64,000 bases of DNA from Parvimonas sp. oral taxon 393 str. F0440 (GTDB lineage: Bacteria > Bacillota > Clostridia > Tissierellales > Peptoniphilaceae). Below are positions 1 through 41,467 of the stretch, one piece after another; positions within the stretch are counted from its first letter, which is position 1; each line of letters starts with the position of its first letter. Made by a program: the position numbers and the translations under genes. The DNA is taken from assembly GCA_000223315.2 (NCBI GenBank), contig AFUS01000004.1:620001-684000 (forward strand), given 5' to 3'. The notes under the pieces were generated by a model. The model was not told where the DNA came from. It did no database searches and was given only the letters and a program-made list of their open reading frames with translations.

Positions 1-1177
1 CAGATGATAAATTATATATAAATAAAGAAATAATTTATTTTGAAAAAACAAAAACAACGAATCCTAAATTTAAATTTAGACAAGTAAATTTTAAAAATTA
101 TTTATTATATAATGGAGTCGTAACTGATAAGATTAACATTGATTCTGAGGACGTAATCGTAGTTTCAATAAGAGATGAAAGAAATTTTTATAAAGAATTT
201 ATAATTATTAACAAAAATAAAATTGCTACAATTCATAATAAAAAATACTATATGTATGAAAAAATTTCAGATGATGTTGATAAAAATAATATCGGTGAAC
301 TAAATTCTAATGACAATTCACAAAATTCAAAAAAAGATATTAGTTTTCTAATAGGAGTAAAAAGTGTAGGAACAAAAGATGTTGATTATGAAACTTTTCT
401 ATTTAGAAAAAACGGAGATGAAAAACCAACATTTAACAAGATAGAGGGACTTTTTATAAACAATAAGAATAAATTTTTTCTTGTAAATTCAACAAATGAT
501 GGGATTTATGTCAGTAATGACTATATAAATAATTCTAATAGAATTGAGTTAGCTATAAAAAATGCAACAATCAATTTTTTGAGTAAAAATTATATTAGTC
601 TTGAATCATATAATTCGGAGACAAATAAAAAAATTATTCAATATATAAAATTGATGGACTATCAGATGAAAAGCAAATATCGATTAAAGATATTGCTGGA
701 GATAGAGGAGAAAAAGCGTATTTTAATAATATAAGAAAACTTGGATATTCAAGTGATAACATTAATTTGTATGATATGAAAAATTTTGGCGTTAAAAGAA
801 GTAATTTTAACTGGATTTTTAAAGGAATATTGAGTAATTATTCACATGATAATTTTGTGTCGAGTGAAATTGATTTAGACTTAATTCCAAATGTTGACAT
901 CTTTTCTAATAAATCTAGCAAAATTTCTAAATTGAAAGTTAAAGAAAAAGTTCAAAATGTATTAGATTATTTTGTTTCTCCAGATGAGAATCTAATAGTA
1001 ATTTTAACAGCAGATGATATTTCTATGTATGAAATAAAAAATCAGGATATAGGAACATTACCAATTTTTACAGTTAGTTTAAAAAATAGAAGAGAAGTAG
1101 TTACTTTTCAATGGACTAATTCAATTAGTAGTGAATTGACATATACAGAGTTTTTGAAGATTAAACAAATAAATTAG
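1..1177 (+). CDS. Unrecognised protein, 5' end off the window, one frameshift
   Basis: The reading frame is open from base 3, so the gene starts upstream of the window and the ATG at 252 is internal. The frame ends at 734, but from about 650 the -1 frame reads on smoothly (IDGLSDEKQISIKDIAGDRG) to a stop at 1177. Adding one A to the A7 run at 627-633 joins the two parts. The visible product is about 390 residues and contains no transmembrane segment. Stretches such as the one ending at residue ~350 (DENLIVILTADDISMYEIKN) alternate polar and hydrophobic residues as in beta-propeller blades, but this is weak. A terminator follows at once. I do not recognise the family. Confidence 0.6.
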
Positions 1178-1183
1178 CGTAAC

Positions 1184-1217
1184 AAAAAATCTCTATGAAA
1201 ACCATAGAGATTTTTTA
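1184..1217. terminator. Bidirectional rho-independent terminator
   Basis: The stem AATCTCTATG / CATAGAGATT (1189-1212) has an A-run on its left and a T-run on its right. It can therefore end both the partial gene on the plus strand and the LysR gene arriving on the minus strand. Confidence 0.85.
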
Positions 1218-1230
1218 TTATCAAATATAT

Positions 1231-2163
1231 TTATATTAAATTAATATCTAATTCTTTTTTTAATTCATTAATTTCATCCATCATAAAATCTTTAAATATT
1301 TTATTTATATTTGAAAATTGTAAATTTTTATTATAAACAAAATAAAATTTTCTATTTAGATAAAGATTTTTTATGTTTAGTATTTTTACTTTATCTTTAA
1401 AAGGAGATATATTTAACATTCTTTGGGAGATAAAGCCACTTCCTACTCCTTTTGTAATAAGTTCTAAAATAGTATTAGTATCATGTATAGTTGCAACACT
1501 GTTAGAAATGACATTCAATGAGTTATTTCTTTTTAACTCATCTTCAACTATTTGTCTAGTACCTGAGCCAATTTCTCTAAGTAAAATTTTATCATTACTT
1601 AAATCTTCAATATTAATAACCGAATAGTTTTTTAAGTCGGGATATGCATCTTTATTAACAACATATACAATGTGATCATCCATAATTTGAGTATAAATCA
1701 ATTTAGGATTAGATATTTTTAGTCCTACAATACCAAAATCTGTTTCTCCAACTAGAATACTATCAATAACGGTTCTAGAATCATCATTACTAATATTAAA
1801 AGAAATATCAGGAAATAAATTTGAGAATTTTTCAATTAAATTTGGTAATATGATTTTTCTAGGAACGGAAGAAACACAAATATTTAAAGTTCCTTTTAAA
1901 TTTTGAGAATATATGTCTAAATCTCTTATAATTTCATCATAAGAAGCCAAAATATTTAAAGCATGTTTGTATACAATACTTCCTGCTTGAGTTAAAGTAA
2001 CACTTCTTCTTGTTCTGACAAAAAGAGAAGTGTTAAGTTCAGATTCAAGAGCTTGTATATGATTTGTAACAGATGGCTGAGTTATATATAACACATCAGC
2101 AGTTTTCGTAAAAGATTTTGTTTTTACAATAGTTATAAATGTTTCTAATTGTTTAAAGTCCAT
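1231..2163 (-). CDS. LysR-family transcriptional regulator
   Basis: Residues 1-60 form the LysR winged helix-turn-helix (DFKQLETFITIVKTKSFTKT, then QPSVTNHIQALE). The rest is a periplasmic-binding-like effector domain, giving 310 residues, the usual length. I chose the ATG at 2163 because GGAGG lies 6 bases before it; the ATG at 2175 lies upstream of that site. The gene is divergent from glyA across a 220-base gap, the classic layout for a LysR regulator and its target. Control of glyA or one-carbon and glycine metabolism is therefore a reasonable guess. The effector is not readable from sequence. The N-terminal pattern resembles the CysL/CbbR branch, but I would not assign it. Confidence 0.9.
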   Translation of the reverse strand: MDFKQLETFITIVKTKSFTKTADVLYITQPSVTNHIQALESELNTSLFVRTRRSVTLTQAGSIVYKHALNILASYDEIIRDLDIYSQNLKGTLNICVSSVPRKIILPNLIEKFSNLFPDISFNISNDDSRTVIDSILVGETDFGIVGLKISNPKLIYTQIMDDHIVYVVNKDAYPDLKNYSVINIEDLSNDKILLREIGSGTRQIVEDELKRNNSLNVISNSVATIHDTNTILELITKGVGSGFISQRMLNISPFKDKVKILNIKNLYLNRKFYFVYNKNLQFSNINKIFKDFMMDEINELKKELDINLI

Positions 2164-7614: not shown

Positions 7615-7629
7615 ATGGAGGATATTTTA

Positions 7630-8654
7630 ATGGCATTAACATATAAATCTGCAGGAGTAAATAAACATGAAGGATATAATGAAGTAAATTTAATAAAAAA
7701 ATTTATTAAAAACACATATACAAAAGGTGTTCTTTCTGATTTAGGCGGTTTTTCAGGACTTTTTGAACTTGGAAAAGATTTTAAAAATCCTGTTTTGGTT
7801 TCCGGAACTGATGGGGTTGGAACGAAAGTAAAATTGGCTCAAATGATGGATGTTCATAATACAGTTGGAATAGATTGTGTTGCAATGTGTGTTAATGATA
7901 TTTTATGTCAAGGTGCTAAACCTTTATTCTTCTTAGATTATATTGCTACCGGAAAACTTGTTGCAGAAAAAATGGCAAGTATTGTTGAAGGTGTTGCAGA
8001 AGGATGTATTCAATCAGGAAGTGCTTTAATTGGCGGAGAAACTGCTGAGATGCCAGGAATATATAAAGAAGAAGATTATGATATTGCAGGTTTCTGTGTA
8101 GGTGTTGTCGAAAAAGATAAAATAATTGATGGTAAGAAAAATGTAAAAAAGGAAATGTTATTTTAGCATTACCATCTTCAGGGGTTCATAGTAACGGTTT
8201 TTCTTTAGTCAGAAAGATAATTTTTGATTATAAAAACTTTTCATTAAACGATATGATAGAAACAGGAAAAACTTTAGGGGAAGAACTTTTGACTCCAACT
8301 AAAATTTATGCGAAATCAATAGTTAATTTGTTAGAAAAATTTAAGGTAAATGGTCTTTGTCATATAACAGGTGGAGGAATTTATGAAAATGTACCAAGAG
8401 TTTTAGGTGATGATGTTGATGCCAAAATTATTGAAAAAAATATTCCGCAAAAAGAAATTTTTTCACTTCTTCAAAAATGGGGAGAGATTTCAAAAGAAGA
8501 AATGTATGGCACTTTTAATATGGGAATAGGAATGTTAATTTTTGTAGAAAGAGAAGATGTTGAAGGAATAAAAGGCTTATTTAAAGAAATGAATGAGGAA
8601 ATTTACGAAGTTGGAGAAGTTGTAGAAGGAAATTCTAAAGTAATTTTATGTTAG
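7630..8654 (+). CDS. purM: Phosphoribosylformylglycinamidine cyclo-ligase (AIR synthetase), one frameshift
   Basis: PurM closes the imidazole ring, making AIR from FGAM and ATP. The first part has [25 protein letters not shown] and GGETAEMPG. The second has [29 protein letters not shown] and FNMGIGM. The frame breaks at the A6 run 8145-8150. One extra A gives [15 protein letters not shown] and a continuous protein of 341 residues, the family length. The ATG at 7630 follows GGAGG and purE stops 15 bases upstream. The gene lies in the expected order for the pathway. Confidence 0.92.
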
Positions 8655-8671: not shown

Positions 8672-11600
8672 ATGGATAAGAGAATTTTTGTTAAGAAGAG
8701 AGATGGATATAATAAGGAAGCTTTAGATCTTAAAAACAATTTAAATATAGAATATAATTTAGGAATAAAAGATTTAGAACTTTATATTATATATGACATT
8801 TACAATATCAATGAAAAACATATGAATTAGCTAAAAATTCAGTTTTTCAGAAGTAATGATTGATGAAGTAGTTGAAAACATAATACTACAAGATGGAAGA
8901 TATTTTGCTTATGAAACATTACCTGCTCAATATGATCAAAGAGCTGATAGTGCAGTTCAATGTGTATCTCTTTTAGATAATAATTCAAAAATTACTGTAA
9001 GAAGCGGAAAACTTATAATTTTTGATAGAGTTTTAAATCAAGATGAAATGGATAAAGTAAAAAATATTTGGTTAATCCTATTGAATCAAGAGTTAAAGAT
9101 ATGAATATTTTGAGTTTTTCAATGAGTTCAGAAATGAAAAAAATGAAAGACTTAAAAGGCTTTTCTTCTTTTTCAAAAGATGAATTAATTGATTTAAAAA
9201 AGAAATGTCTCTAGCGATGAATATTGAGGATTTAATTTTCATTCAAGATTATTTTAGGAATGAAGGAAGAATACCTACTGAAACTGAAATCTACGTTTTA
9301 GACTGCTATTGGAGTGATCATTGTAGACATACAACTTTTGAAACTGTGTTAGATAATATTAAAATTGAATCTGAGCTTTTCCAAAAAGAAATGCAAAATG
9401 CTTTTGATATTTATTTAAATATTAGAAAAGAATTAAATATTACTAAGCCTATAACTCTAATGGATATGGCAAGTATATTCGGTAAATATCATAAAAGAGT
9501 ATTAAATGATCAAAATATAGAGGTTAGTGAAGAAATTAATGCTTGTTCATTTTTTACTGATATTGAAAATAATGGAGAAACAGAAAAATGGTTAATTCAA
9601 TTTAAAAACGAAACACATAATCACCCTACAGAGATTGAACCTTTTGGTGGAGCGAGTACTTGTGTTGGAGGAGCAATTAGAGATCCATTGTCCGGAAGAA
9701 GTTATGTTTATCAAGCAATGAGAGTAACAGGTTGTGGTAATATTTTACAAAAAAGAGAAGAAACTTTGAAGCATAAGTTACCTCAAGTTGATATTTCTAC
9801 AAAAGCCACAAGTGGCTACTCATCTTATGGTAATCAAATTGGACTTGCAACAACTTATGTAAAGGAACTCTATGATGACTCTTATGTTGCTAAACATATG
9901 GAAGTTGGAGCGGTTGTTGGAGCAGTCAAATACGGAGATTTCAAAAGAGAAACTCCTGTTAAAGATGATATTGTAATCTTAATTGGAGGAAGAACAGGTA
10001 GAGACGGTATTCAAGGAGCAAGCGGTTCAAGTTTAATTCATACAAATGATTCTCTTGAAACAGCATCAAGTCAAGTGCAAAAAGGAAATGCCATTGAAGA
10101 GAGAAAAATTCAAAGATTATTTAGAAAACCTGAAGTTACAAAATTGATTAAAAAATGTAATGATTTTGGTGCGGGTGGTGTTTGTGTTGCAATCGGAGAA
10201 TTATCTGATGGAATTGAAATTCATTTAGATAAAGTTTTATTGAAATATGAAGGGTTAAATCCGACAGAAATTGCCACAAGTGAGTCACAAGAACGTATGG
10301 CAATTGTAATATCACCAAATGATTATGAAATTTTTATAAAAGAATGTGAAAAAGAAAATATAGAATATTCTAAAGTAGCAACTATAACCGATAGAAGAAG
10401 ACTAGAGATGTATTATTATGATGATAAGGTTATGGATTTAAGCGCAGACTTTTTGGCAACAAGTGGAGTAAGACAACACTCAAAAGCATTATTATGCGAT
10501 AATAATGGAAGCAATCCTTTTGAAAATAAGCTTATTTCTAAAGAAAATGTATTAAATGAATTATCATCATTAAATGTAGCTTGTCAAAAAGGAATTGCTC
10601 AAAGATTTGATGCTTCAATAGGTGCAACAACCGTATTAATGCCCTTCTCAGGTAAAAATCAATTAACTCCTGTTCAAGCTGGTATTCAGGCATTACCTAC
10701 AATTCATTCAACAAGTGATACAGCTACAATTTTGAGTTATGGATTTATTCCAAAGATATCTCATTACTCACCATTCTTATCAGCTATTTATGCTGTTTTA
10801 GAATCTGTTGCCAAAGTTTATGCTGTTGGTGGAGATAAAAGTAATTTATATTTTTCTTTCCAAGAATATTTTGAAAAACTTGGAAAAGACAGTAAAAAAT
10901 GGGGAAAAGTTACTCAAAGCTTACTAGGAACTATCTATGCTCAAAATGAGATAGGATGTCCAAGTATCGGAGGAAAAGATAGTATGTCTGGAACATTTAA
11001 CGAATTAAATGTCGTTGAAACATTGATATCTTTTGCATGTACTCCTGTTAAAATTAAGAATGTAATTTCTCCGGAATTAAAAACAATTGGAAATTATATA
11101 TATTATGTTCCTATTGTAAAAAATTCGAAAGGATATCCTGAAATTAAGGAAACATTAAAAAGCTATGAACTGATAAATGAACTTATAAAATCAGGTAAAA
11201 TTTTATCAGCATATGTTCAGGAAGAAGGTAGTGTAGTAAGTTCTCTAGTAAAAATGGCAGTTGGAAATGGTTTAGGTTTTACAGTTAATAAGGAAAATAT
11301 TTTAAATTTTGATCCTGCATCAATTGTTGTAGAATCAAATTGTGAATTACATTTTGAAAAAATTGGAATGGTTAGTGAAGAAATATCTATAAATGGAATT
11401 AAATTTGATTATGATGAAATATATAATGCATATACAAAAACATTAGATAAAATCTATCCTTTATATCAAAATTTAGACTGTGGAAATTGTGAAAATTTAT
11501 CTAATTATAAAATTGAAAAAAAATATTTTAAAGAATATATTGAAAATGTAAATGTCTTAATTCCTGTATTTCCTGGAACTAATTGTGAATATGACGTAGA

Positions 11601-12335
11601 AAAAGCATTTATTGACGTAGGTGCTACAACAAAAACTGTTATATTTAGAAACAAAAAGGAAGATGATATTGAAAAGTCAATTGATGAATTGGTAAATGGA
11701 ATAAAAGATGCACACATTATTATGATACCAGGCGGATTTTCAAGTGGAGATGAGCCTGATGGAAGTGCAAAGTTCATAGTAAATGTTTTAAAAAACGAAA
11801 AAGTTAAAGATGCAATTCATAAACATTTAGATGATAAAAATTAATTTTGGGTATTTGTAACGGATTTCAAGCATTAATTAAGTCAGGACTTATACCTTAC
11901 GGAAGAATAAAGTCTTTAACTGAAGATGACTTGACATTATACAGAAATGACAGTTATCATCATATTTCAACAAGTGCTATAACTTGTGTTGCAAATGTGA
12001 ATTCTCCTTGGACTCAAGATTTTGAAATTGGACAATTGCATGAAATTATGTTTAGTCATGGTGAAGGAAAACTTGTTGGAAACAATATTGAGAAATTTAA
12101 GGATTTATGTGCCTTCCAATACTGTGATTTTGAAGGTAATGCAAGTAGCAATGGAAAATTTAATCCTAATGGTTCATTATATGCCATTGAAGGTATGATA
12201 AGTGAAGACGGATTGGTTTTAGGGAAAATGGGACATAGTGAGCGTTATGGAACCGGTTTATATAAAAATAAAACTATAAAAGAAATTCAAAATATATTTG
12301 AAAATGGTGTAAACTATTTTAAAGGAAATAAATAA
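8672..12335 (+). CDS. purL: Phosphoribosylformylglycinamidine synthase, single-chain type, five frameshifts
   Basis: This is the large one-chain FGAM synthase. It has an N-terminal domain, two AIR-synthase-like halves (CYWSDHCRHTTF, ETHNHPTEIEPFGGASTCVGG, IGGKDSMSGTF) and a C-terminal glutaminase (PVFPGTNCEYD, GICNGFQAL with the catalytic Cys, and a His in FSHGEG). It converts FGAR, glutamine and ATP to FGAM. The frame breaks at A5 8814-8818, T5 8843-8847, A6 9059-9064, A6 9195-9200 and A5 11836-11840. One added base at each gives a continuous 1222-residue protein. The start ATG at 8672 follows GGAGG. Five breaks in one required pathway gene argue for sequence error. Confidence 0.92.
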
Positions 12336-31501: not shown

Positions 31502-31570
31502 ATTATTGATATGTTTATATAAAATATATGAGCTAATATTTTGATTATTTTTAACAATTATGGAGGAAAT

Positions 31571-33175
31571 ATGTCTATTTTCATTTCTGTTTTAGGAGGT
31601 TTAGGTTTGTTCTTGTATGGAATGAATCTAATGGGATCAGGACTACAAAAGTCTTGTGGTGAAAGATTAAAAGGAATAATTGCTGCAATAACTAAAAATA
31701 GAATTTATGCTGTTTTGGTTGGTATTTTTGTTACAATGATTATTCAATCAAGTTCAGCAACTACAATAATGACAATTGGTTTTGTAAATGCAGGGTTTAT
31801 GACTTTAGCTCAATCTGTTGGAATAATAATAGGTGCAAATGTAGGGACAACTATTACTGCGCAAATTATTGCATTTGATATTGCAAAATATGCACCGTTG
31901 GTTATAGCCATAGGAGTTTTTCTATGGATGAGAGCTAAAAACGATAGAAAAAAAGATATATCTGAAATTTTAATTGGATTTGGTATTTTATTTTTAGGTA
32001 TGTCCATTATGAGTAATGGTTTAGCACCACTTGCTCAAGAAGAATGGTTTAAAGAGATACTTATGAAATTGAATAATCCTTTTGTAGGAGTGTTAGCCGG
32101 TCTGATGTTAACTACAATATTACAATCTTCATCAGCTTCAATAGGTTTATTGGAAGCGTTAGGAATGCAGGGAGCAATAAATATAAATCAGGCATTTGGT
32201 ATTCTATTTGGAGATAACATAGGAACAACTACAACCGCTATGATTTCAAGTATAGGAGCTAGCAAAAATGCTAAAAGGGCTGCGTTTATACATTTTCTAT
32301 TTAACTTAATTGGAACTTTAATATTTATGACTGTATTAAGAATACCTGTTCAATATTTAGTGGAATATATCTCGCCAGGAAATGTTCAAAGACAGATTGC
32401 TAATGCTCATACATTTTTTAATATAATTAATGTTTTAATTCAATTGCCTTTTTCAAATTTTTTAGTTAAAATTTCTCAATTAGTTATTAAGGGTGATGAT
32501 ATAGTTGAAGAACGCTATTCTGAACATTTGGACAAGAGATTTTTTGAAACACCAAGTATTGCAATTATTCAAGCACAAAAAGAAGTTATAAGAATGGGTG
32601 AAATTGTAATAGAATCTCTTGAAAAAACTATAGATGCATTTAAAACTAAGAGTAGTAAGAATATAGAGTTTGTTCTCAATAGGGAAAAGATGATAAATGG
32701 ACTTGAAAAAGAAATTATTGATTATTTAGTTCCATTAGCAGATAAAAATTTATCTGATGAAGAAAAGCATAAAGTCTTTGTGATGATGTATTCAATAAAT
32801 GATTATGAAAGAATTGGAGATCACTGTGAGAATATTATTGAGTTGATTCAGGAAATAAAAGATGAAAATTCAGTATTCAGTAAGACCGCTTTTGATGAAT
32901 ATGATAAAATATCATCAGATGTAATGAAAATAGTTGTTGATACAACAAATGCATATAAAGATAATGATCTTGAATTGGCAAAAAATTGTATAAATATAGA
33001 GGAAGAAGTGGATATCTTGGAAGAAAGTTATAGAAGAAATCATATGGATAGAATTAATAGAGGTATATGTGATACAAATTCAGGTGTAAAATTTTTGGAT
33101 ATATTATCTAACTTAGAAAGAATTGCAGACCACGGTGTAAATATTGCAAATTACACATTAGGAAAGGAATTATAA
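31571..33175 (+). CDS. Na/Pi cotransporter family protein with PhoU-like domain
   Basis: The N-terminal ~320 residues form the repeated Na/Pi transporter core. Each half has a QSSSA motif (VTMIIQSSSATTIMT and LTTILQSSSASIGLL) and a GxNxGTT or GDNIGTT loop. The remaining ~210 residues are a helical PhoU-like domain. The protein probably imports phosphate with sodium. GGAGG precedes the ATG at 31571; the upstream ATG of the longer frame has no site. It is 534 residues and monocistronic. Phosphate is a co-substrate of glycine reductase, but a link is only a thought. Confidence 0.92.
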   Translation: MSIFISVLGGLGLFLYGMNLMGSGLQKSCGERLKGIIAAITKNRIYAVLVGIFVTMIIQSSSATTIMTIGFVNAGFMTLAQSVGIIIGANVGTTITAQIIAFDIAKYAPLVIAIGVFLWMRAKNDRKKDISEILIGFGILFLGMSIMSNGLAPLAQEEWFKEILMKLNNPFVGVLAGLMLTTILQSSSASIGLLEALGMQGAININQAFGILFGDNIGTTTTAMISSIGASKNAKRAAFIHFLFNLIGTLIFMTVLRIPVQYLVEYISPGNVQRQIANAHTFFNIINVLIQLPFSNFLVKISQLVIKGDDIVEERYSEHLDKRFFETPSIAIIQAQKEVIRMGEIVIESLEKTIDAFKTKSSKNIEFVLNREKMINGLEKEIIDYLVPLADKNLSDEEKHKVFVMMYSINDYERIGDHCENIIELIQEIKDENSVFSKTAFDEYDKISSDVMKIVVDTTNAYKDNDLELAKNCINIEEEVDILEESYRRNHMDRINRGICDTNSGVKFLDILSNLERIADHGVNIANYTLGKEL

Positions 33176-33246: not shown

Positions 33247-33275
33247 TTTACAATTGGGTAAACATAATATATAAT
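33247..33275 (+). promoter_or_regulatory. Promoter of trxB-grdEAB
   Basis: TTTACA at 33247-33252, 17-base spacer, TATAAT at 33270-33275. An inverted repeat TTTACC (33232-33237) / GGTAAA (33257-33262) straddles the -35 box and could be an operator. Confidence 0.7.
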
Positions 33276-33335: not shown

Positions 33336-34265
33336 ATGTACGATTGTATAATAATCGGTGCAGGCCCTGCAGGAATTAGTGCTGGAATATATGCAGCAAG
33401 GGCTAGTATGAAGACTATAATAATAGAGAGAGGTACACCGGGTGGTTTAATTGCTAAAACTGATGAGATAGCTAATTATCCCGGAGCAGAAGACGTACCA
33501 ACAGGACCAGAGTTAATTGAAAGAATGGTTAAACAAGCAAAATCTTTTGGAGCTGAATTTATTACTGATACTGTTATAGATGTTGATTTTTCGGGAACTA
33601 ATAAAGTGGTTTATGGTGAAAATAAAACTTATGAAGGAAAATCAGTAATTATTGCTACTGGATCTAATCCAAGATTATTAAATGTTCCTGGAGAAAAGGA
33701 GTTTACAGGTAAAGGTATAGCTTATTGTGCAACTTGTGATGCACCATTTTTTCAAGATTTAGATATTTATGTTGTTGGTGCTGGAGAAGCAGCTGTTGAG
33801 GAAGCAATGTATCTTACAAAATTCGGAAGAACTGTTACTTTGTTGGCTAGAAAAGATAAATTATCTGTTGCTAAATCAATTGAAGAAAAAGCATTAAAAT
33901 GTGAAAAATTAAATATCATGTGGAATGTTGAAGTTGAAAGTTTTGAGGGGACTGGTTTGTTGGGAGCTATGAACATAGTGAATAATAAAACTGGTGAAAA
34001 GACTAAAATTGTTCCTAGAGAAGGTGACATGATATTCGGTGTATTTATTTTTGTAGGTTACATTCCAGAAAGTACAATTTTCAGCGGAAAGATTGATACT
34101 GATAGAAATTATATTATATCAGATGAAACAATGAAAACTAGTGTTGAAGGTGTATTCGTCGCTGGCGATGTTAGAGTTAAAGAACTAAGACAAGTTGTTA
34201 CAGCGGTTAATGATGGAGCGATAGCAGCAATTAATGCTAGAAAATATGTCGAGAGTTTAGAATAA
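33336..34265 (+). CDS. trxB: Thioredoxin reductase-like flavoprotein
   Basis: The 309-residue protein has an FAD motif (IIGAGPAGISAGIYAARA), the redox-active CATC (Cys131, Cys134) and a C-terminal FAD motif (GVFVAGDVRVKELRQVVTA). It reduces thioredoxin, which in turn reduces the glycine reductase selenoproteins. The usual NADPH signature HRRxxFR is replaced by LARKDKLSV after GAGEAAVEE. The electron donor may therefore not be NADPH; ferredoxin-dependent relatives in clostridia lack this signature. In many Clostridia trxA follows trxB, but here grdE comes next, 52 bases on. GGAGG precedes the ATG. Confidence 0.9.
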   Translation: MYDCIIIGAGPAGISAGIYAARASMKTIIIERGTPGGLIAKTDEIANYPGAEDVPTGPELIERMVKQAKSFGAEFITDTVIDVDFSGTNKVVYGENKTYEGKSVIIATGSNPRLLNVPGEKEFTGKGIAYCATCDAPFFQDLDIYVVGAGEAAVEEAMYLTKFGRTVTLLARKDKLSVAKSIEEKALKCEKLNIMWNVEVESFEGTGLLGAMNIVNNKTGEKTKIVPREGDMIFGVFIFVGYIPESTIFSGKIDTDRNYIISDETMKTSVEGVFVAGDVRVKELRQVVTAVNDGAIAAINARKYVESLE

Positions 34266-34317
34266 TTGAATTTAATTCCGAAAGGATTAAATATATAAAT
34301 TTTAAGGAGGTGAGTAT

Positions 34318-35604
34318 ATGCGTCTAGAATTAGGAAAAATCTTAATTAACGATGTTAAATTTTGTTCAGAAACAAAAGTTGACAAAGGTGTTTTATACAT
34401 TAATAAAGAAGAGTTAATAGCTCATTTAATGGATGATGAACACTTAAAATCAGTAGACGTAGATCTTGCAAAACCAGGTGAAAGTGTAAGAATTACTCCA
34501 ATTAAGGATGTTGTAGAACCAAGAGTAAAGGTTAACGGAGCAGGTGGAGTATTCCCTGGAATGATTTCAAAAGTTGATGTAGTTGGTTCAGGAAGAACTC
34601 ATGTTCTTAAGGGAGCAGCAGTAATGACAGTTGGTAAAATAGTTGGTTTCCAAGAAGGTATTGTTGATATGCAAGGACCGGGGGCTGAATATACACCATT
34701 CTCAAAAACTAATAATATAGTATTGATTGTGGAACCAGCTGAAGGAGTTGCAACTCATGCTTATGAAAAGGCTGTTAGAATGGCTGGATTAAAGGCTGCT
34801 ACTTATTTAGGATTAGCTGGAAAAGAAGTTGAACCGGATGAAGTAGAAGTATTTGAAACTAAACCATTATTTGAACAAGCTGAAGAATTAAAACATTTAC
34901 CAAAAGTAGCTTATGTACAAATGTTACAATCACAAGGATTATTACATGATACATATGTTTACGGTGTAGATGCAAAACAAATAGTTCCAACAATATTATA
35001 TCCAACAGAATTAATGGATGGAGCTATCTTAAGTGGTAATTGTGTATCTGCTTGTGATAAGAATACAACATATCATCACTTAAATAACCCTGTTGTTAGA
35101 GCAATGTATGAACAACATGGAAAAGAAATTAACTTTGTTGGTGTTATTATCACTAACGAAAATGTATATTTAGCAGATAAAGAAAGATCATCAAACTGGA
35201 CTGCTAAATTATGTGAATTTTTAAATCTTGATGGAGCTATCGTATCTCAAGAAGGATTCGGTAACCCAGATACAGACTTAATAATGAACTGTAAGAAAAT
35301 TGAAGGTAAGGGCGTTAAAACTGTTATTATCACTGACGAATATGCAGGAAGAGACGGTGCTAGCCAATCATTAGCTGATGCTGACGTAGCTGCAAATGCA
35401 GTAGTAACAGGTGGTAATGCTAACGAAACTATCGTATTACCTAAGATGGATAAAGTTATCGGAACTTTAGACTATGTTGACATTATTGCTGGTGGATTTG
35501 ATGGATCATTAAGAGAAGATGGTTCAATCATGGTTGAATTACAAGCAATAACTGGAGCAACTAATGAATTAGGATTTAATAGATTATCAGCTACTGGCTA
35601 TTAA
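34318..35604 (+). CDS. grdE: Glycine reductase complex B, proprotein GrdE
   Basis: GrdE is the precursor of two subunits of the substrate-binding protein B. It is cleaved at an internal cysteine to form a pyruvoyl group that binds glycine as a Schiff base. Cys242, in ILSGNCVSACDKN, is at the known cleavage position. At 428 residues it is full length. It matches the glycine-type B protein, and the neighbours grdA and grdB agree with glycine rather than betaine or sarcosine. AAGGAGGTGAG precedes the ATG. Confidence 0.97.
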   Translation: MRLELGKILINDVKFCSETKVDKGVLYINKEELIAHLMDDEHLKSVDVDLAKPGESVRITPIKDVVEPRVKVNGAGGVFPGMISKVDVVGSGRTHVLKGAAVMTVGKIVGFQEGIVDMQGPGAEYTPFSKTNNIVLIVEPAEGVATHAYEKAVRMAGLKAATYLGLAGKEVEPDEVEVFETKPLFEQAEELKHLPKVAYVQMLQSQGLLHDTYVYGVDAKQIVPTILYPTELMDGAILSGNCVSACDKNTTYHHLNNPVVRAMYEQHGKEINFVGVIITNENVYLADKERSSNWTAKLCEFLNLDGAIVSQEGFGNPDTDLIMNCKKIEGKGVKTVIITDEYAGRDGASQSLADADVAANAVVTGGNANETIVLPKMDKVIGTLDYVDIIAGGFDGSLREDGSIMVELQAITGATNELGFNRLSATGY

Positions 35605-35677
35605 AATTTATTAAATACACGGAATATTATATAAAATTAAACGAAAATAAAATATATAGAAAGGATGTGTTAGCGAT

Positions 35678-36142
35678 ATGGCACTTTTTACAGAAAATAC
35701 AAAAGTAATCATAATCGGTGATAGAGATGGTATACCAGGACCAGCTATGGAAGAATGTGTCGCTACAACTCCTGCAGAAATAGTATTTTCAGCAACTGAA
35801 TGTTTTGTCTGAACTGCAGCAGGAGCAATGGACTTAGAAAATCAAAGAAGGGTAAAAGAATTAGCAGAAAAATACGGTGCAGAAAATTGTTTAGTTCTTT
35901 TAGGAGCATCTGAAGCAGAATCAGCAGCATTAGCAGCTGAAACTGTAACTACAGGAGACCCTACTTTTGCAGGTCCATTAGCAGGAGTTCAGTTAGGACT
36001 TAAAGTATATCACGCAGTTGAACCTGAATTTAAAGCAGAAGTTGATGAATCAGTTTATGATGACCAAATTGGTATGATGGAAATGGTTCTTGACTGTGAT
36101 GCTATCATTGAAGCTGTAAGTGAAATTAGAAATTCATTATAA
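35678..36142 (+). CDS. grdA: Glycine reductase protein A, selenoprotein GrdA
   Basis: GrdA carries the carboxymethyl group on selenium between proteins B and C and is itself reduced by thioredoxin. The start is ATG 35678 after AAGGATGTG. An in-frame TGA at 35810-35812 falls at codon 44 in [13 protein letters not shown], exactly the conserved CxxU selenocysteine site. The remainder continues in frame to TAA at 36142, giving 154 residues. A plain gene finder would report only the tail from 35828. The segment after the TGA must hold the SECIS element, but I see only weak stems there. Confidence 0.97.
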
Positions 36143-36195
36143 TTTGTAATTAAGAAAAAAATCATATATAAATATATGATAGAGAGGTGATTAGT

Positions 36196-37503
36196 GTGGA
36201 AAAATTAAGAGTAGTTCACTATATAAACCAATTCTTTGCTGGTATAGGTGGAGAAGAAAAGGCAGATTATAAACCAGAAGTCAGAGAAGAAAAAATTGGA
36301 CCTGGTTTAGCATTAAATGCCGGTTTTAAGGGTGAAGCTGAAATAGTTGCTACAGTTATCTGCGGAGACAGCTATTTTGGTGAAAATATGGACCAAGCTA
36401 AAGCAGAAGTTTTAGAAATGGTTAAAAAGTATAATCCAGATTTATTCATAGCAGGTCCTGCATTTAATGCTGGTCGTTATGGAGTTGCTGCTGGTACAAT
36501 TACTGAAGCTGTTCAAAATGAATTGGGTATTCCGGCTTTAACTGGTATGTATATTGAAAACCCAGGTGCAGATATGTTCAAAAAGAGCATATATATAGTT
36601 TCAACTAAAAATAGTGCTGCAGGTATGAAAGATGCTGTAAGCAAAATGGTTCCACTTGCAATGAAACTTGTTAAAGGAGAAGAAATTGGTTCTCCAGCTG
36701 AAGAAGGTTACATTGAAAGAGGAGTTAGAAAGAACATATTTAGAGAAGATTTTGGTGGTAAGAGAGCTGTAAATATGATGATTAAAAAGTTAAAAGGTGA
36801 GGAATTCGAAACAGAATTTCCAATGCCACACTTTGACAGAGTAGATCCAAATCCAGCTGTTAAAGATATTACAAAAGCTAAGATTGCTTTGGTAACATCA
36901 GGTGGTATTGTTCCACATGGAAATCCGGATCATATTGAGTCTTCATCAGCTTCAAAATATGGTAAATATGATATTGAAGGTGTAATGGATCTTAAAGAAG
37001 GCGAATGGGAAACAGCACATGGTGGTTATGACCCTGTTTATGCTAACCAAGATGCAGATAGAGTTTTACCTGTTGATGTTTTAAGAGAACTTGAAAAGAA
37101 GGGTGAAATTGGAAGTCTTCATAGATATTTCTATACTACAGTAGGAAATGGTACAGCTGTAGCTTCTGCAAAAGCATTTGCAGAAAAATACAGCAAAGAA
37201 TTGGTTGCTGATGGAGTAGATGCAGTTATATTAACATCTACTTGAGGTACTTGTACACGTTGCGGTGCAACGATGGTAAAAGAAATTGAGAGAGCTGGAA
37301 TTCCAGTAGTACATGTATGTACTGTAACTCCAATTTCATTAACAGTAGGAGCTAACAGAATTGTTCCTGCTATAGCAATTCCTCATCCATTAGGTAATCC
37401 TAAATTGAGCCATGAAGAAGAATATGCATTAAGAATGGGTATTGTTAAAAAAGCATTAAAAGCTTTATCAACTGAAGTTGATGGACAAACAATATTTGAA
37501 TAA
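36196..37503 (+). CDS. grdB: Glycine reductase complex B, selenoprotein GrdB
   Basis: GrdB is the selenium subunit of protein B, which cleaves glycine's C-N bond and releases ammonia. The start is GTG 36196 after AGAGAGGTG (MEKLRVVHYINQFFAGIGGE). An in-frame TGA at 37243-37245 is codon 350, in LTST-U-GTCTRCGATM, the conserved UxxC position. Translation continues to 37503, giving 435 residues. A perfect 6-bp hairpin (CGTTGC, loop GGT, GCAACG) at 37258-37272 lies 12 bases after the TGA, the place and shape of a bacterial SECIS. A terminator follows the gene. Confidence 0.97.
37258..37272 (+). promoter_or_regulatory. Candidate SECIS element of grdB
   Basis: CGTTGC / GCAACG with a GGT loop, 12 bases downstream of the UGA. 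Bacterial SECIS hairpins lie in the coding region just after the UGA and show G and U in the apical loop for SelB. Confidence 0.7.
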
Positions 37504-37512
37504 TTTTTAAGT

Positions 37513-37546
37513 AAAAAAAGGTGTCAGGTATTGACACCTTTTTAAT
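37513..37546 (+). terminator. Terminator between grdB and grdC
   Basis: GGTGTCA (37520-37526) pairs with TGACACC (37532-37538), with A7 before and T5 after. It would limit read-through from the selenoprotein genes into grdCD. Confidence 0.88.
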
Positions 37547-37559
37547 TTAGTGGTATTCT
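37531..37559 (+). promoter_or_regulatory. Promoter of grdC-grdD, overlapping the terminator
   Basis: A consensus TTGACA at 37531-37536 lies in the right arm of the terminator. TATTCT follows at 37554-37559 after 17 bases, with TG one base ahead (extended -10). Confidence 0.72.
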
Positions 37560-37634
37560 ATTATGTAAGGGTAGTTGGCTTATATGCAATACATACTGTG
37601 CTATCTGTTTTTTATATTAAAGGAGGTAATTAAG

Positions 37635-39176
37635 ATGAATTTTCCTGTATTAAAAGGAACTTCTTACGTATTAGTTCATGCGCCAGACATGATAATTCAA
37701 AATGGAACAACTCAAACTACTGAAAAGGCTTTAAATCCTAATTCAGAATATCTAAAAGAAATACCAAAACATATTAGAAAATATGAAGAAGTATTAAATT
37801 ATTTACCAAATCAAGTTTATATTGGAAATAAAAGACCTGAAGATTTAAAGGCTGTACCACAACCTTGGTCAGATAAAGAAAAATATTTGACTGATTCTCC
37901 AAGAGTTGGTAAATATGGTGAAATAATGCCTGAAAATGAATTCATTGGCCTTATGAAGATTTGTGATGCTTTTGATTTGGTCTATCTTAACAAAGAATTT
38001 ACTGAATCTGTAAAAGCTGATTTGGAAAAACACCCATTAGTAAGTGAAGCATTAGTAGCTAGATTAAAAGAAGGTGTTGAACAATCTGTACTTGAAGGAC
38101 ATATGGATAACCATGCTGAAGGTTTATATTTTGAAGATAAATTAGTAGGTGTAGTTACTAGAGCACATGATGTTGATGTTAACTTGTCAGCACATGTTAT
38201 GTTAGAAAATTTAGTTACTAAAGCATCTGGATTATTAGCTGCTTTACATTTAGTAGATAAAAATGATTTAGATCCTAATGATGTTGAATATATTATTGAA
38301 TGTTCAGAAGAAGCATGCGGAGATATGAACCAAAGAGGTGGTGGTAACTTTGCAAAATCTATAGCTGAATTAGCTGGATTTAATAGTGCTTCAGGTTCTG
38401 ATTTAAGAGGATTCTGTGCTGCTCCAACTCATACTTTAATTGCTGCATCTTCCCATGTTCATGCTGGAACATTTAAGAATGTTGTTATTGTTGCTGGAGG
38501 ATGTACAGCTAAGTTGGGTATGAATGGTAAAGACCATCTTAAAAAAGGATTACCAATACTAGAAGATTGTATCGGAGGATTTGCTGCATTAATTTCTGAA
38601 AACGATGGAGTTAACCCTGTATTAAGAACAGATATAGTTGGAAGACATACAGTAGGAACTGGTTCATCACCACAAGCTGTAATGTCTGCTTTAGTTACTG
38701 CACCATTAGAAAAAGCTAATTTAACAGTTAAAGATGTTGATAAATATTCAGCAGAAATGCAAAATCCTGATATTACTAAACCTGCAGGAGCAGGAGATGT
38801 TCCAAACGCAAACTTCAAGATGATTGGTGCATTAGGAGTAATGAAAAAACAATTAGAAAAAGCTGAAATTGCAAGTTTTATTGAAAATCATGGTATGGAA
38901 GGATGGGCTCCAACACAAGGACATATTCCTTCAGGAGTTCCTTATTTAGGATTCTGTCGTGAAGACTTAACTACAGGAGAACTAAATAGAGCTATGATTA
39001 TTGGTAAAGGTTCTTTATTCTTAGGAAGAATGACTAACTTATTTGACGGTGTATCAATTGTTTTAGAAAGAAATTCAGGTAAATTAGAAGACAACTCTGG
39101 AGTTTCTAAGGAAGAAGTTAAGAAATTAGTTGCTGAAGCAATGAGAAATTTTGCATCTTCTTTAATTGAAGAATAG
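37635..39176 (+). CDS. grdC: Glycine reductase complex C, subunit GrdC
   Basis: GrdC is the large subunit of protein C, which releases acetyl phosphate from the carboxymethyl-selenoether of protein A. It shows FabH/thiolase-like stretches, such as IECSEEACGDMNQRGGGNFA, GFCAAPTHTLIAASSHVHAG and SFIENHGMEGWAPTQGHIPS. It is 513 residues long. The ATG at 37635 follows AAAGGAGGTAATTAAG; the upstream frame start at 37575 has no site. It starts a separate transcription unit with grdD. Confidence 0.96.
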   Translation: MNFPVLKGTSYVLVHAPDMIIQNGTTQTTEKALNPNSEYLKEIPKHIRKYEEVLNYLPNQVYIGNKRPEDLKAVPQPWSDKEKYLTDSPRVGKYGEIMPENEFIGLMKICDAFDLVYLNKEFTESVKADLEKHPLVSEALVARLKEGVEQSVLEGHMDNHAEGLYFEDKLVGVVTRAHDVDVNLSAHVMLENLVTKASGLLAALHLVDKNDLDPNDVEYIIECSEEACGDMNQRGGGNFAKSIAELAGFNSASGSDLRGFCAAPTHTLIAASSHVHAGTFKNVVIVAGGCTAKLGMNGKDHLKKGLPILEDCIGGFAALISENDGVNPVLRTDIVGRHTVGTGSSPQAVMSALVTAPLEKANLTVKDVDKYSAEMQNPDITKPAGAGDVPNANFKMIGALGVMKKQLEKAEIASFIENHGMEGWAPTQGHIPSGVPYLGFCREDLTTGELNRAMIIGKGSLFLGRMTNLFDGVSIVLERNSGKLEDNSGVSKEEVKKLVAEAMRNFASSLIEE

Positions 39177-39186
39177 AGGTGATTTC

Positions 39187-40347
39187 ATGTCTGATATTAA
39201 AAAAGTAATTGGTAATGTCTTTGAAGAAATAGCTACTGGTTTAGAAACTGGAGCATTTGGAAAAAGACCAAGAATTGCTGTTACAACTTTAGGCAGTGAA
39301 CATGGATTAGATAATGTTGTTAAAGGAGCTGAATTAGCTCAATCAAGAGATAAAAGTGTTGAATATTGTATAATTGGACCTGAAGTTAATACTTCATTAA
39401 AACAATATGTTGTTGCAAATGAAGAAGAAGGTTACAAAAAAATGGAATCACTTTTAGATAGTGGAGAAATTGATGGCTGCGTTACAATGCATTATAGTTT
39501 TCCAATTGGAGTTTCTACTGTAGGTAGAGTTGTTACTCCGGCTGCTGCGAAAGAAATGATTATTGCAACTACTACTGGTACTTCTTCTGCACATAGAGTA
39601 GAAGGTATGGTTAAAAATGGTATTTATGGAATTATAGTTGCTAAAGCATTAGGAATTCAAAATCCAACAGTTGGAATTTTGAATGTTGATAATGCAGTTT
39701 CAGTTGAAAGAGCATTTAAAGAATTAAAAGAAAATGGATATGATATGAACTTTGCTGAATCTAATAGAGCTGACGGTGGAGTTTTAATGAGAGGAAATGA
39801 CTTATTACAAGGAGTTCCTGATGTTATGGTTAATGATACTTTAACAGGAAATCTATTGATGAAAGTATTCTCATCATACACTACTGGTGGTGGATTTGAA
39901 GCTATGGGTTATGGATATGGACCTGGAATTGGTGAAGGATACGAAAGATTAGTTCTTATAGTATCAAGAGCTTCAGGTTTCCCAGTAATTGCTAACGCAA
40001 TGACTTATGCCGGACAATTAGTTAAAGGTAATATCAAAGAAGTTTCAAAGAAAGAGTTTGAAAAAGCAAACAAAGCTGGTTTAAAGGCTATTTTAGAAAA
40101 AATAACTTCTGCTGGTGCTAAAAAAGCTGAACCAGAAGAAGAAGTTAAATGTCCTGCTGAAGAACAAGCTACTGCTACAATTGGTGGTATTGACATTCTT
40201 AAACTTGAAGATGCTAAGGTTGCTTTATGGAAAAATAATATATTTGCAAAAACTGGAATGGGTTGTACTGGACCAGTTGTAATGGTTAATGATGCAAATC
40301 TTGAAAAAGCCAAAGAAATCTTAACAAAAGAAGGTTATATTGCTTAA
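39187..40347 (+). CDS. grdD: Glycine reductase complex C, subunit GrdD
   Basis: GrdD is the small subunit of protein C and resembles the PlsX/phosphotransacetylase fold. Cys98 (DGCVTMHYS) and Cys360 (TGMGCTGPVV) match the two conserved cysteines, the latter thought to carry the acetyl thioester before phosphorolysis. It is 386 residues long. The ATG at 39187 follows GAGGTGATTTC, ten bases past grdC. A strong terminator ends the unit. Confidence 0.96.
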   Translation: MSDIKKVIGNVFEEIATGLETGAFGKRPRIAVTTLGSEHGLDNVVKGAELAQSRDKSVEYCIIGPEVNTSLKQYVVANEEEGYKKMESLLDSGEIDGCVTMHYSFPIGVSTVGRVVTPAAAKEMIIATTTGTSSAHRVEGMVKNGIYGIIVAKALGIQNPTVGILNVDNAVSVERAFKELKENGYDMNFAESNRADGGVLMRGNDLLQGVPDVMVNDTLTGNLLMKVFSSYTTGGGFEAMGYGYGPGIGEGYERLVLIVSRASGFPVIANAMTYAGQLVKGNIKEVSKKEFEKANKAGLKAILEKITSAGAKKAEPEEEVKCPAEEQATATIGGIDILKLEDAKVALWKNNIFAKTGMGCTGPVVMVNDANLEKAKEILTKEGYIA

Positions 40348-40452: not shown

Positions 40453-41016
40453 ATGAGTTTAATTGGAAAAAAAATTGAAGAATTTCAAGTTCCTGCATAT
40501 TATGATGGGGATATAATAACAGTATCAAACAAAGATTTAGAAGGCAAATGGAGTCTTTTCTTCTTTTATCCAGGAGATTTTACATTTGTATGTCCAACTG
40601 AATTAGAAGATTTAGCATTAAGCTATGATAAATTTAAAGCAATAGGTTGTGAAATTTATTCAGTATCTACTGACTCTGAATTTGTTCATAAAGCTTGGTG
40701 GGATGCTTCTGAAACTATTAGAAAAATTCAATATCCAATGATTTCAGATAGAGCTTTAGCTCTTTCAGAACAATTTGGCGTATTAATTGAAGGCGAAGGA
40801 CAAGCTTTAAGAGGAACTTTCGTTGTAAATCCTCAAGGAGAAATAGTTCTTTATGAAGTAAATGCTAATGGTATTGGAAGAAATGCAAAAGAATTATTAA
40901 GAAAAGTTCAAGCTGCACAATTTGTTGCTAAACATGGTGATAAAGTGTGTCCTGCAAGATGGGAACCAGGTGATGAAACTTTAACTCCAGGATTAGACTT
41001 AGTAGGTAAATTATAA
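40453..41016 (+). CDS. Typical 2-Cys peroxiredoxin (AhpC-like)
   Basis: The 187-residue protein reads as AhpC. The peroxidatic Cys47 lies in DFTFVCPTELEDLA, the resolving Cys166 in GDKVCPARWEPGDETL, and ISDRALALSEQFGV is typical. It reduces hydrogen peroxide and organic peroxides. No ahpF follows, so electrons may come from the thioredoxin system encoded by trxB just upstream. Next to an oxygen-sensitive selenoenzyme cluster, a protective role is natural. AGGAGG precedes the ATG. Confidence 0.95.
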   Translation: MSLIGKKIEEFQVPAYYDGDIITVSNKDLEGKWSLFFFYPGDFTFVCPTELEDLALSYDKFKAIGCEIYSVSTDSEFVHKAWWDASETIRKIQYPMISDRALALSEQFGVLIEGEGQALRGTFVVNPQGEIVLYEVNANGIGRNAKELLRKVQAAQFVAKHGDKVCPARWEPGDETLTPGLDLVGKL

Positions 41017-41229: not shown

Positions 41230-41275
41230 ATATCTAATATTTTTATGAATATAAAAAATTAAATATAGGCATATA

Positions 41276-41467
41276 AAAGAGGAGTAACTTAAAAGGAATT
41301 TTAAGAGAGAATTTGTTTGGTGTAAAAATTCAGTTTGTTTTTTGTGAAGGTAGCTTTTTAGCTTTGAAAAACGGGTAATTTCGTTATAAATTTAGAGAGT
41401 CATTTTATGAAAATTAGGTGGTACCGCGATAACTTCGTCCTATTTATTGGATGAAGTTTTTTTATTA
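41276..41467 (+). ncRNA. T-box riboswitch for valS
   Basis: The leader starts with an AGAGGAGTAA element, as in T-box stem I. It has the T-box proper GGTGGTACCGCG at 41417-41428. It ends in a terminator pairing AACTTCGTCC (41431-41440) with GGATGAAGTT (41449-41458), followed by T7. The putative specifier is GTA (valine) at 41350-41352 in GAAGGTAGC, which agrees with valS downstream. Uncharged tRNA-Val would bind and allow read-through. Confidence 0.92.

Follow-up and report, generated by a model that had tools for sequence, protein, structure and literature searches.

A selenium-dependent glycine reductase operon without trxA in Parvimonas, and the supply of electrons to its selenoprotein A

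How is glycine reductase kept reduced when the thioredoxin gene of its operon is missing? The question is raised by a stretch of 64,000 nucleotides from Parvimonas sp. oral taxon 393 str. F0440 (contig AFUS01000004.1, positions 620,001 to 684,000; the whole stretch is called the window below), whose plus strand carries trxB-grdE-grdA-grdB-grdC-grdD at 33336-40347, as read from the open reading frame (ORF) list and the translations. According to the established chemistry of this enzyme family, protein B (GrdB with its selenocysteine (Sec) 350, and GrdE) would remove the amino group from glycine, the two-carbon unit would pass to the selenium of GrdA (C-x-x-U), and GrdC/GrdD would release it as acetyl phosphate, leaving GrdA oxidised. 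Elsewhere, the chain NADPH-TrxB-TrxA re-reduces GrdA. Comparison of this locus and its genome with those of relatives makes it likely, in our view, that the glycine reductase of Parvimonas is active and receives its electrons without the help of a canonical soluble thioredoxin. The parts of the operon are as follows.

33336-34265, plus strand: trxB, a thioredoxin-reductase-type flavoprotein of 309 aa; CATC active site kept, NADP-binding motif HRRDxLRA changed to ARKDKLSV
34266-34317, plus strand: gap of 52 bp between trxB and grdE, occupied by trxA in other grd operons; no remnant of the gene was found
34318-35604, plus strand: grdE, proprotein of protein B, 428 aa (full-length match to NF040793)
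35678-36142, plus strand: grdA, selenoprotein A, 154 aa (NF040748 and translation)
35807-35812, plus strand: GTC-TGA, Sec codon 45 of grdA with its conserved 5' neighbour codon; TGA in 72/72 loci
36196-37503, plus strand: grdB, selenoprotein B, 435 aa, GTG start (TIGR01917 and translation)
37243-37245, plus strand: Sec codon 350 of grdB; TGA in 75/75 loci
37246-37283, plus strand: SECIS_4 element (Rfam RF01990 and frozen synonymous sites)
37635-39176, plus strand: grdC, protein C beta subunit, 513 aa (NF040746)
39187-40347, plus strand: grdD, protein C alpha subunit, 386 aa (NF040747)

Loss of trxA and divergence of TrxB

A CxxC protein of ~105 aa, the product of trxA, follows trxB in all 32 named non-Parvimonas loci that have a trxB (the other five named non-Parvimonas loci show none), and the 18 of these proteins that were aligned carry active sites such as CEPC, CEIC or CAPC. 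Among 130 genomes of the Peptoniphilaceae, of which Parvimonas is a member, 41 gave a GrdE-like match at E 1e-100; G068 and G069, with distant GrdE-like matches only, were left out, and 39 loci were used (38 and the window). trxA is present in 26 of them and absent in 12, while in one (G082, on a cut contig) neither trxB nor trxA is seen upstream. Three loci with trxA (G059, G060, G080) have no trxB next to it. The 12 loci without trxA, where trxB lies 56-96 bp from grdE by BLAST ends, belong to six Parvimonas genomes (the window genome, G000, and G001-G005) and to six genomes of three other genera (G078, G088-G090, G091 and G092). No remnant or relocated copy of trxA was found in the 64-kb window by a six-frame search (no match above 5.5 bits, with positive controls at 170 and 147 bits), nor in 11 trxA-less grd loci. 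A GrdE/B/C/D tree with 48 rows (short search, supported by the Shimodaira-Hasegawa-like approximate likelihood ratio test, SH-aLRT, only) calls for two changes of trxA: the first falls in the common ancestor of Parvimonas, G078, G091 and G092, the second in G088-G090, both with support 100. Because the outside rows have trxA, we read these changes as losses, so that the gene would have been lost twice in the family.

Thioredoxin elsewhere in the genomes was looked for with PF00085, PF00462 and, in the genus alone, with a profile of 18 grd trxA sequences; PF00085 was run on all 39 genomes, at E 0.1 in the genus and at E 0.01 in the other 33. Each of the 27 grd genomes without the deletion (26 with trxA, and G082) has a PF00085 match of at least 67 bits in a frame of 103-149 aa, and the search is therefore sensitive. 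No canonical soluble thioredoxin was found by PF00085 in the 12 trxA-less genomes, whose best match reaches 28-51 bits in a frame of at least 187 aa. By eye, these best-matching proteins consist of an N-terminal hydrophobic anchor, a linker and a UxxC or CxxC domain in 11 of the 12 cases; in the remaining one (G092) the bases near the start are masked. The best match carries one in-frame TGA in every Parvimonas genome. At E 0.1 the trxA profile gave nothing in four of the six Parvimonas genomes; its sole match in each of the remaining two contains an in-frame TGA and coincides with the anchored UxxC protein placed there by PF00085. This anchored protein adjoins a DsbD/CcdA-like membrane protein in G000, G004, G091 and G092, with Pfam support for the partner in G000 only, and G091 has an additional 214-aa membrane protein matching PF00085. 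On contig C3 of the window genome the anchored thioredoxin-like selenoprotein (U-G-A-C) lies at L060 1360-1971, minus strand, beside the DsbD/CcdA-like protein at 678-1370, minus strand.

TrxB has also changed. Against the NADPH thioredoxin reductase model TIGR01292 it scores 338.0 bits and does not reach the cut-off of 343.45 (the P. micra copy scores 340.3), while all five trxA-plus relatives that were scored give 364-389 bits. The match to TIGR03143 covers the first 310 of 555 positions with 392.3 bits, short of the cut-off of 687.65, and no second thioredoxin reductase was found in the window genome by this model (next match 55 bits). The protein keeps CATC and GxGxxA (as GAGEAA) and has lost HRRxxxR (now ARKDKLS), the nucleotide-binding motif of NADPH thioredoxin reductase. 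The last Arg of the motif is absent from all 12 trxA-less family loci and kept in 40/46 trxA-plus loci; its His is also lost in several trxA-plus genera, so the motif alone is not diagnostic. A ferredoxin-dependent TrxB is conceivable given the loss of this motif, but with GxGxxA kept it is no more than a possibility.

The divergence extends over the whole protein. Between genomes with a Grd identity of 0.70-0.75, and bearing in mind that the pairs share ancestry and are not independent, TrxB identity is 0.705 for trxA-plus pairs (102 pairs), 0.547 for Parvimonas versus trxA-plus (62 pairs), 0.552 for G078/G091/G092 versus trxA-plus (22 pairs) and 0.505 for G088-G090 versus trxA-plus (3 pairs). 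At a Grd identity of 0.75-0.80, G088-G090 give 0.567 (5 pairs) against 0.771 for trxA-plus pairs. GrdA identity shifts far less than that of TrxB (0.773 versus 0.801). Faster divergence of TrxB in the trxA-less lineages fits either a change of partner or relaxed constraint.

The enzyme and its selenocysteine codons

By its family matches the locus is a selenium-dependent glycine reductase of known kind. GrdB reaches 759.8 bits with the glycine-type model TIGR01917 (NCBIfam; cut-off 602.2), GrdA 263.4 bits with NF040748 (cut-off 130), GrdC 821.8 bits with NF040746 (cut-off 450) and GrdD 593.8 bits with NF040747 (cut-off 350). Sarcosine and betaine reductase were tried and rejected, GrdB staying below the cut-offs of the sarcosine GrdF model (727 bits, cut-off 800) and the betaine GrdH model (577.1 bits, cut-off 775). 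GrdE matches the sarcosine-reductase GrdG model NF040793 over its full length with 683.8 bits, below that model's cut-off of 780, and is 61-80% identical to family homologues outside the genus; it contains GNCVSAC, whose Cys242 (35041-35043) we take to be the pyruvoyl cleavage site. The nearest named GrdB records are those of Parvimonas micra SYY and Parvimonas parva (95%) and Tissierellia bacterium KA00581 (94%). A sequence search for solved structures of GrdA or GrdB gave chance-level matches only. The first-pass annotation had called trxB-grdE-A-B-C-D a complete set: the six genes are present, grdA-D with family-model scores above the cut-offs, but the set lacks trxA, which most other surveyed grd operons carry. 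Its further claim, that glycine yields energy through acetyl phosphate, is what the family as a whole would lead one to expect. The other five Parvimonas genomes (G001-G005) contain further GrdE-like genes of 46-49% identity, probably of sarcosine or betaine type, and the window genome has no GrdE-like gene at E 1e-100 besides the grdE of the operon.

Both grdA and grdB are interrupted by an in-frame TGA. In GrdA it stands at 35810, codon 45 when the initial Met is counted and 44 when it is not, in the motif C-F-V-U with 109 residues after it; in GrdB it stands at 37243, codon 350, in the motif U-G-T-C with 85 residues after it. These are the positions at which the first-pass annotation had placed selenocysteine (CxxU and UxxC), and the comparison bears them out. 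The survey comprised 40 named GrdB relatives, 38 family loci chosen by GrdE, and the window, a choice independent of the UGA, and counts were made after removal of three duplicate contigs (with the duplicates included, grdA is without a match in the retrieved sequence of 4 of 79 loci, and grdB is unreadable in 1 of 79). TGA occupies the grdA position in 72/72 readable loci and the grdB position in 75/75, the frames continue, and conservation of both proteins extends beyond the UGA. Directly 3' of the grdB codon, at 37246-37283, lies an element of the Rfam family SECIS_4 (selenocysteine insertion sequence, SECIS; RF01990) with 64.8 bits at a gathering score of 38. Synonymous sites of grdB are frozen there (the gene's best window of 8 sites has a mean z of 10.8, the mean over the gene being 1.8), with CGT, TGC and GCA each found in 75/75 loci.

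The machinery for selenocysteine is present as well. In the window genome selD, selA and selB are adjacent at C1:25657-29995, each above its family cut-off, selD having one in-frame TGA of its own, and a tRNA-Sec with anticodon TCA scores 70.7 bits. A search of the genome for selA, selB, selC and selD, proposed as a check on the annotation, thus finds all four, and the absence that was to speak against it does not occur. Because of the conserved TGA, the conserved downstream protein, SECIS_4, the frozen synonymous sites and this machinery, both in-frame UGAs are, on the evidence of sequence comparison, selenocysteine codons. As had been foreseen, a plain ORF list cuts both genes: grdA appears there as a 104-aa tail at 35828 and grdB as a piece that stops at 37245, and the grdB tail at 37273 falls below the 80-aa limit of the list.

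No SECIS element was found for grdA by Rfam at E 10, by single-strand folding (z +0.79), by alignment folding or as synonymous-site constraint after the UGA; alignment folding has little power here, as it shows no covariation in grdB either, where the sites are frozen. It should be noted that the codon just 5' of the grdA UGA is GTC in 64/72 readable loci, whereas across the grd genes of those loci GTC accounts for 548 of 11895 Val codons.

Candidates for the electron carrier

Since the TrxA of the operon is gone and no canonical soluble thioredoxin was found, TrxB must reach GrdA by another route. A YruB-type glutaredoxin-like protein of 76 residues, encoded elsewhere in the genome, may carry the electrons from TrxB to GrdA; as the replacement carrier it is our leading guess, and a tentative one, made by analogy. 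In the window genome this protein (76 aa, C1:265554-265784, motif CTYC) is nearest to the YruB family and below its cut-off, and it occurs in all 12 trxA-less genomes, with 76-78 aa from the first Met in those inspected. On balance we favour the view that Peptoniphilaceae have separated glycine reductase from thioredoxin on at least two occasions, with either the glutaredoxin-like protein or TrxB itself reducing GrdA.

Several observations weigh against such a scheme. The glutaredoxin-like protein is also present in 26 of the 27 genomes without the deletion and is therefore not specific, its divergence shows no clear shift with trxA loss (27 of the 39 genomes compared), and the adjacency of ahpC to the operon is missing in two of the six Parvimonas genomes. 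One of the six, G003, has by PF00085 a soluble thioredoxin-like protein of 119 aa (CAPC; L072 1474-1833, minus strand) which at 27.7 bits is over the Pfam cut-off. A thioredoxin of another family could escape the PF00085, PF00462 and trxA-profile searches. Also, the window genome (1.48 Mb, 5 contigs) is 89.68% complete, but this does not explain the absence, because G001 and G003 (single contigs, 99% complete) agree on the deletion. Finally, the paper on Microaceticoccus formicicus states that trxA-B are present in strain AMB_02 (PMC12079837); in G091, which we take to be this strain, PF00085 finds anchored or membrane thioredoxin-like proteins only.

Transfer from TrxB directly to GrdA, with GrdA occupying the site where thioredoxin docks, would compete with the glutaredoxin step and leave a thioredoxin-free supply in place. 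We regard it as possible, though not probable. It agrees with the retention, in every trxA-less lineage, of CATC and of the FF pair following it in TrxB, the pair which docks thioredoxin in E. coli TrxB, and with a TrxB divergence that is faster wherever trxA was lost. In an AlphaFold2 model of GrdA (mean predicted local distance difference test, pLDDT, 90.7) the Cys42-Sec45 loop is the least certain part, with a pLDDT of 68 for residues 41-50, which may mean that it is flexible. However, we know of no case of direct TrxB-GrdA transfer that could serve as a precedent, and GrdA around CxxU appears by eye unchanged in the trxA-less species. As to GrdA being a possible thioredoxin-fold stand-in for TrxA, the model gave no Foldseek match at E 0.001 or better and a best Z of 7.4 in VIA-align, with no thioredoxin among the 50 rows listed by either program.

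If instead a divergent soluble thioredoxin had been missed and served GrdA, the system would be canonical with a displaced trxA. The limited set of genome-wide models and the one weak soluble protein of G003 leave some room for this, but we think it unlikely, as the same PF00085 search recovers a soluble-sized match of at least 67 bits in 27/27 genomes without the deletion, and at E 0.1 the grd trxA profile gives nothing in four Parvimonas genomes and, in the remaining two, hits just the place of the anchored protein with its in-frame TGA. That anchored UxxC selenoprotein, together with its CcdA-like partner, could in principle supply GrdA itself, being the only PF00085 match at E 0.1 in five of the six Parvimonas genomes and adjoining a DsbD/CcdA-type membrane protein in the window genome. 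Its topology makes this very improbable: with its short, positively charged N-terminus, single hydrophobic segment and long linker, the protein would have its redox domain outside, away from cytosolic GrdA, and CcdA proteins usually move electrons outward. Hardly credible is a decaying operon, in which the UGAs would be true stops or assembly errors. Other genes of the assembly do look broken by eye (purM, purL, glyS), but the UGAs are conserved in 72/72 and 75/75 loci together with the protein beyond them, SECIS_4 and the Sec machinery are present, and transcripts of the Parvimonas glycine reductase are reported in a metatranscriptome paper to be raised in periodontitis (PMC11041396).

Surroundings of the operon and known systems

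Four further features lie in or next to the operon.

31541-33175, plus strand: Na/Pi cotransporter-PhoU protein, upstream of trxB (NF037997, 220.4 bits, cut-off 50)
33247-33275, plus strand: sigma-70-like promoter before trxB, TTTACA-17-TATAAT (11/12 consensus matches)
37515-37543, plus strand: terminator-like or attenuator-like hairpin between grdB and grdC (fold z -4.91, 0/200 shuffles as good)
40453-41016, plus strand: ahpC, peroxiredoxin with Cys (TIGR03137, 287.8 bits, cut-off 272)

The promoter is weak evidence, with 53 sigma-70-like sites found in the window versus 58.5 expected from shuffles. The grdB-grdC hairpin, followed by a T run, is present in all six Parvimonas, and hairpins of other sequence occupy the same gap in all nine other loci that were folded (these without control); it may determine how much of the selenoproteins is made relative to GrdC/D. 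The Na/Pi cotransporter-PhoU gene precedes trxB in 15 family loci out of 39 (two of these 39 are truncated on the upstream side); glycine reductase uses phosphate as one of its substrates. ahpC stands directly 3' of grdD in 4/6 Parvimonas loci and in 0/30 other family loci that reach far enough. Further on, a T-box leader (100.4 bits, 41263-41445) lies upstream of an ORF at 41652 that looks by eye like valyl-tRNA synthetase. Also by eye, purM, purL and glyS are each in two pieces (window 7615-8654 and 9205-12335; L195 1520-2910), which may come from indel errors in the assembly or mark genuine breaks; none of the grd genes is broken.

In most respects the operon resembles its counterparts in Clostridium sticklandii and Clostridioides difficile: it shares with them trxB and grdE-A-B-C-D, the two Sec codons and the protein families. 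It differs from them in lacking trxA, both of those operons having their own trxA/trxB, and in having no ORF of at least 80 aa in the expected place of grdX, after the Na/Pi gene and before trxB. While C. difficile has a glycine riboswitch, none was found in the Parvimonas window at the Rfam gathering score. The C. difficile thioredoxin paper describes trxA3/B3 as systematically present in the grd operons of the Clostridia compared there (PMC10880999). For Brachyspira pilosicoli and B. murdochii, the genome paper likewise lists grdX-trxB-grdE-grdA-grdB with no trxA named, and thioredoxins with predicted Sec are reported there outside the cluster (PMC2897892); in five of six Parvimonas, PF00085 finds the anchored one only.

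Another parallel is offered by Clostridium pasteurianum, in which Reynolds, Meyer and Poole reportedly described in 2002 an NADH-dependent protein resembling thioredoxin reductase that, with a glutaredoxin homologue, reduces AhpC. The window genome has similar elements, a flavoprotein of this type, a glutaredoxin-like protein and AhpC, with ahpC directly after grdD. The C. pasteurianum system is not known to feed glycine reductase, however, and the glutaredoxin-like gene of Parvimonas is unlinked.

That Parvimonas has this enzyme was known before, its transcripts having already been reported as increased in periodontitis in a metatranscriptome meta-analysis (PMC11041396), and a grd cluster without trxA is not wholly new given Brachyspira. 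Literature searches, mostly at title level and of freely accessible papers, gave no title on a thioredoxin-free glycine reductase and no lineage keeping glycine reductase without a canonical soluble thioredoxin in its genome. What is new, so far as gene content tells, is an electron supply unlike the canonical one.

Glycine reductase is described as receiving its electrons from thioredoxin, and anaerobes, some of them human-associated, that keep the enzyme without thioredoxin make the identity of the real carrier testable. The two UGA-bearing genes, grdA and grdB, show in addition how automatic annotation can miss an energy pathway. With trxA lost, TrxB remains as the sole thioredoxin reductase detected in the window genome. 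If our reading is true, these bacteria possess a thioredoxin reductase while lacking any canonical soluble thioredoxin, and their TrxB would be dedicated to energy metabolism and peroxide defence.

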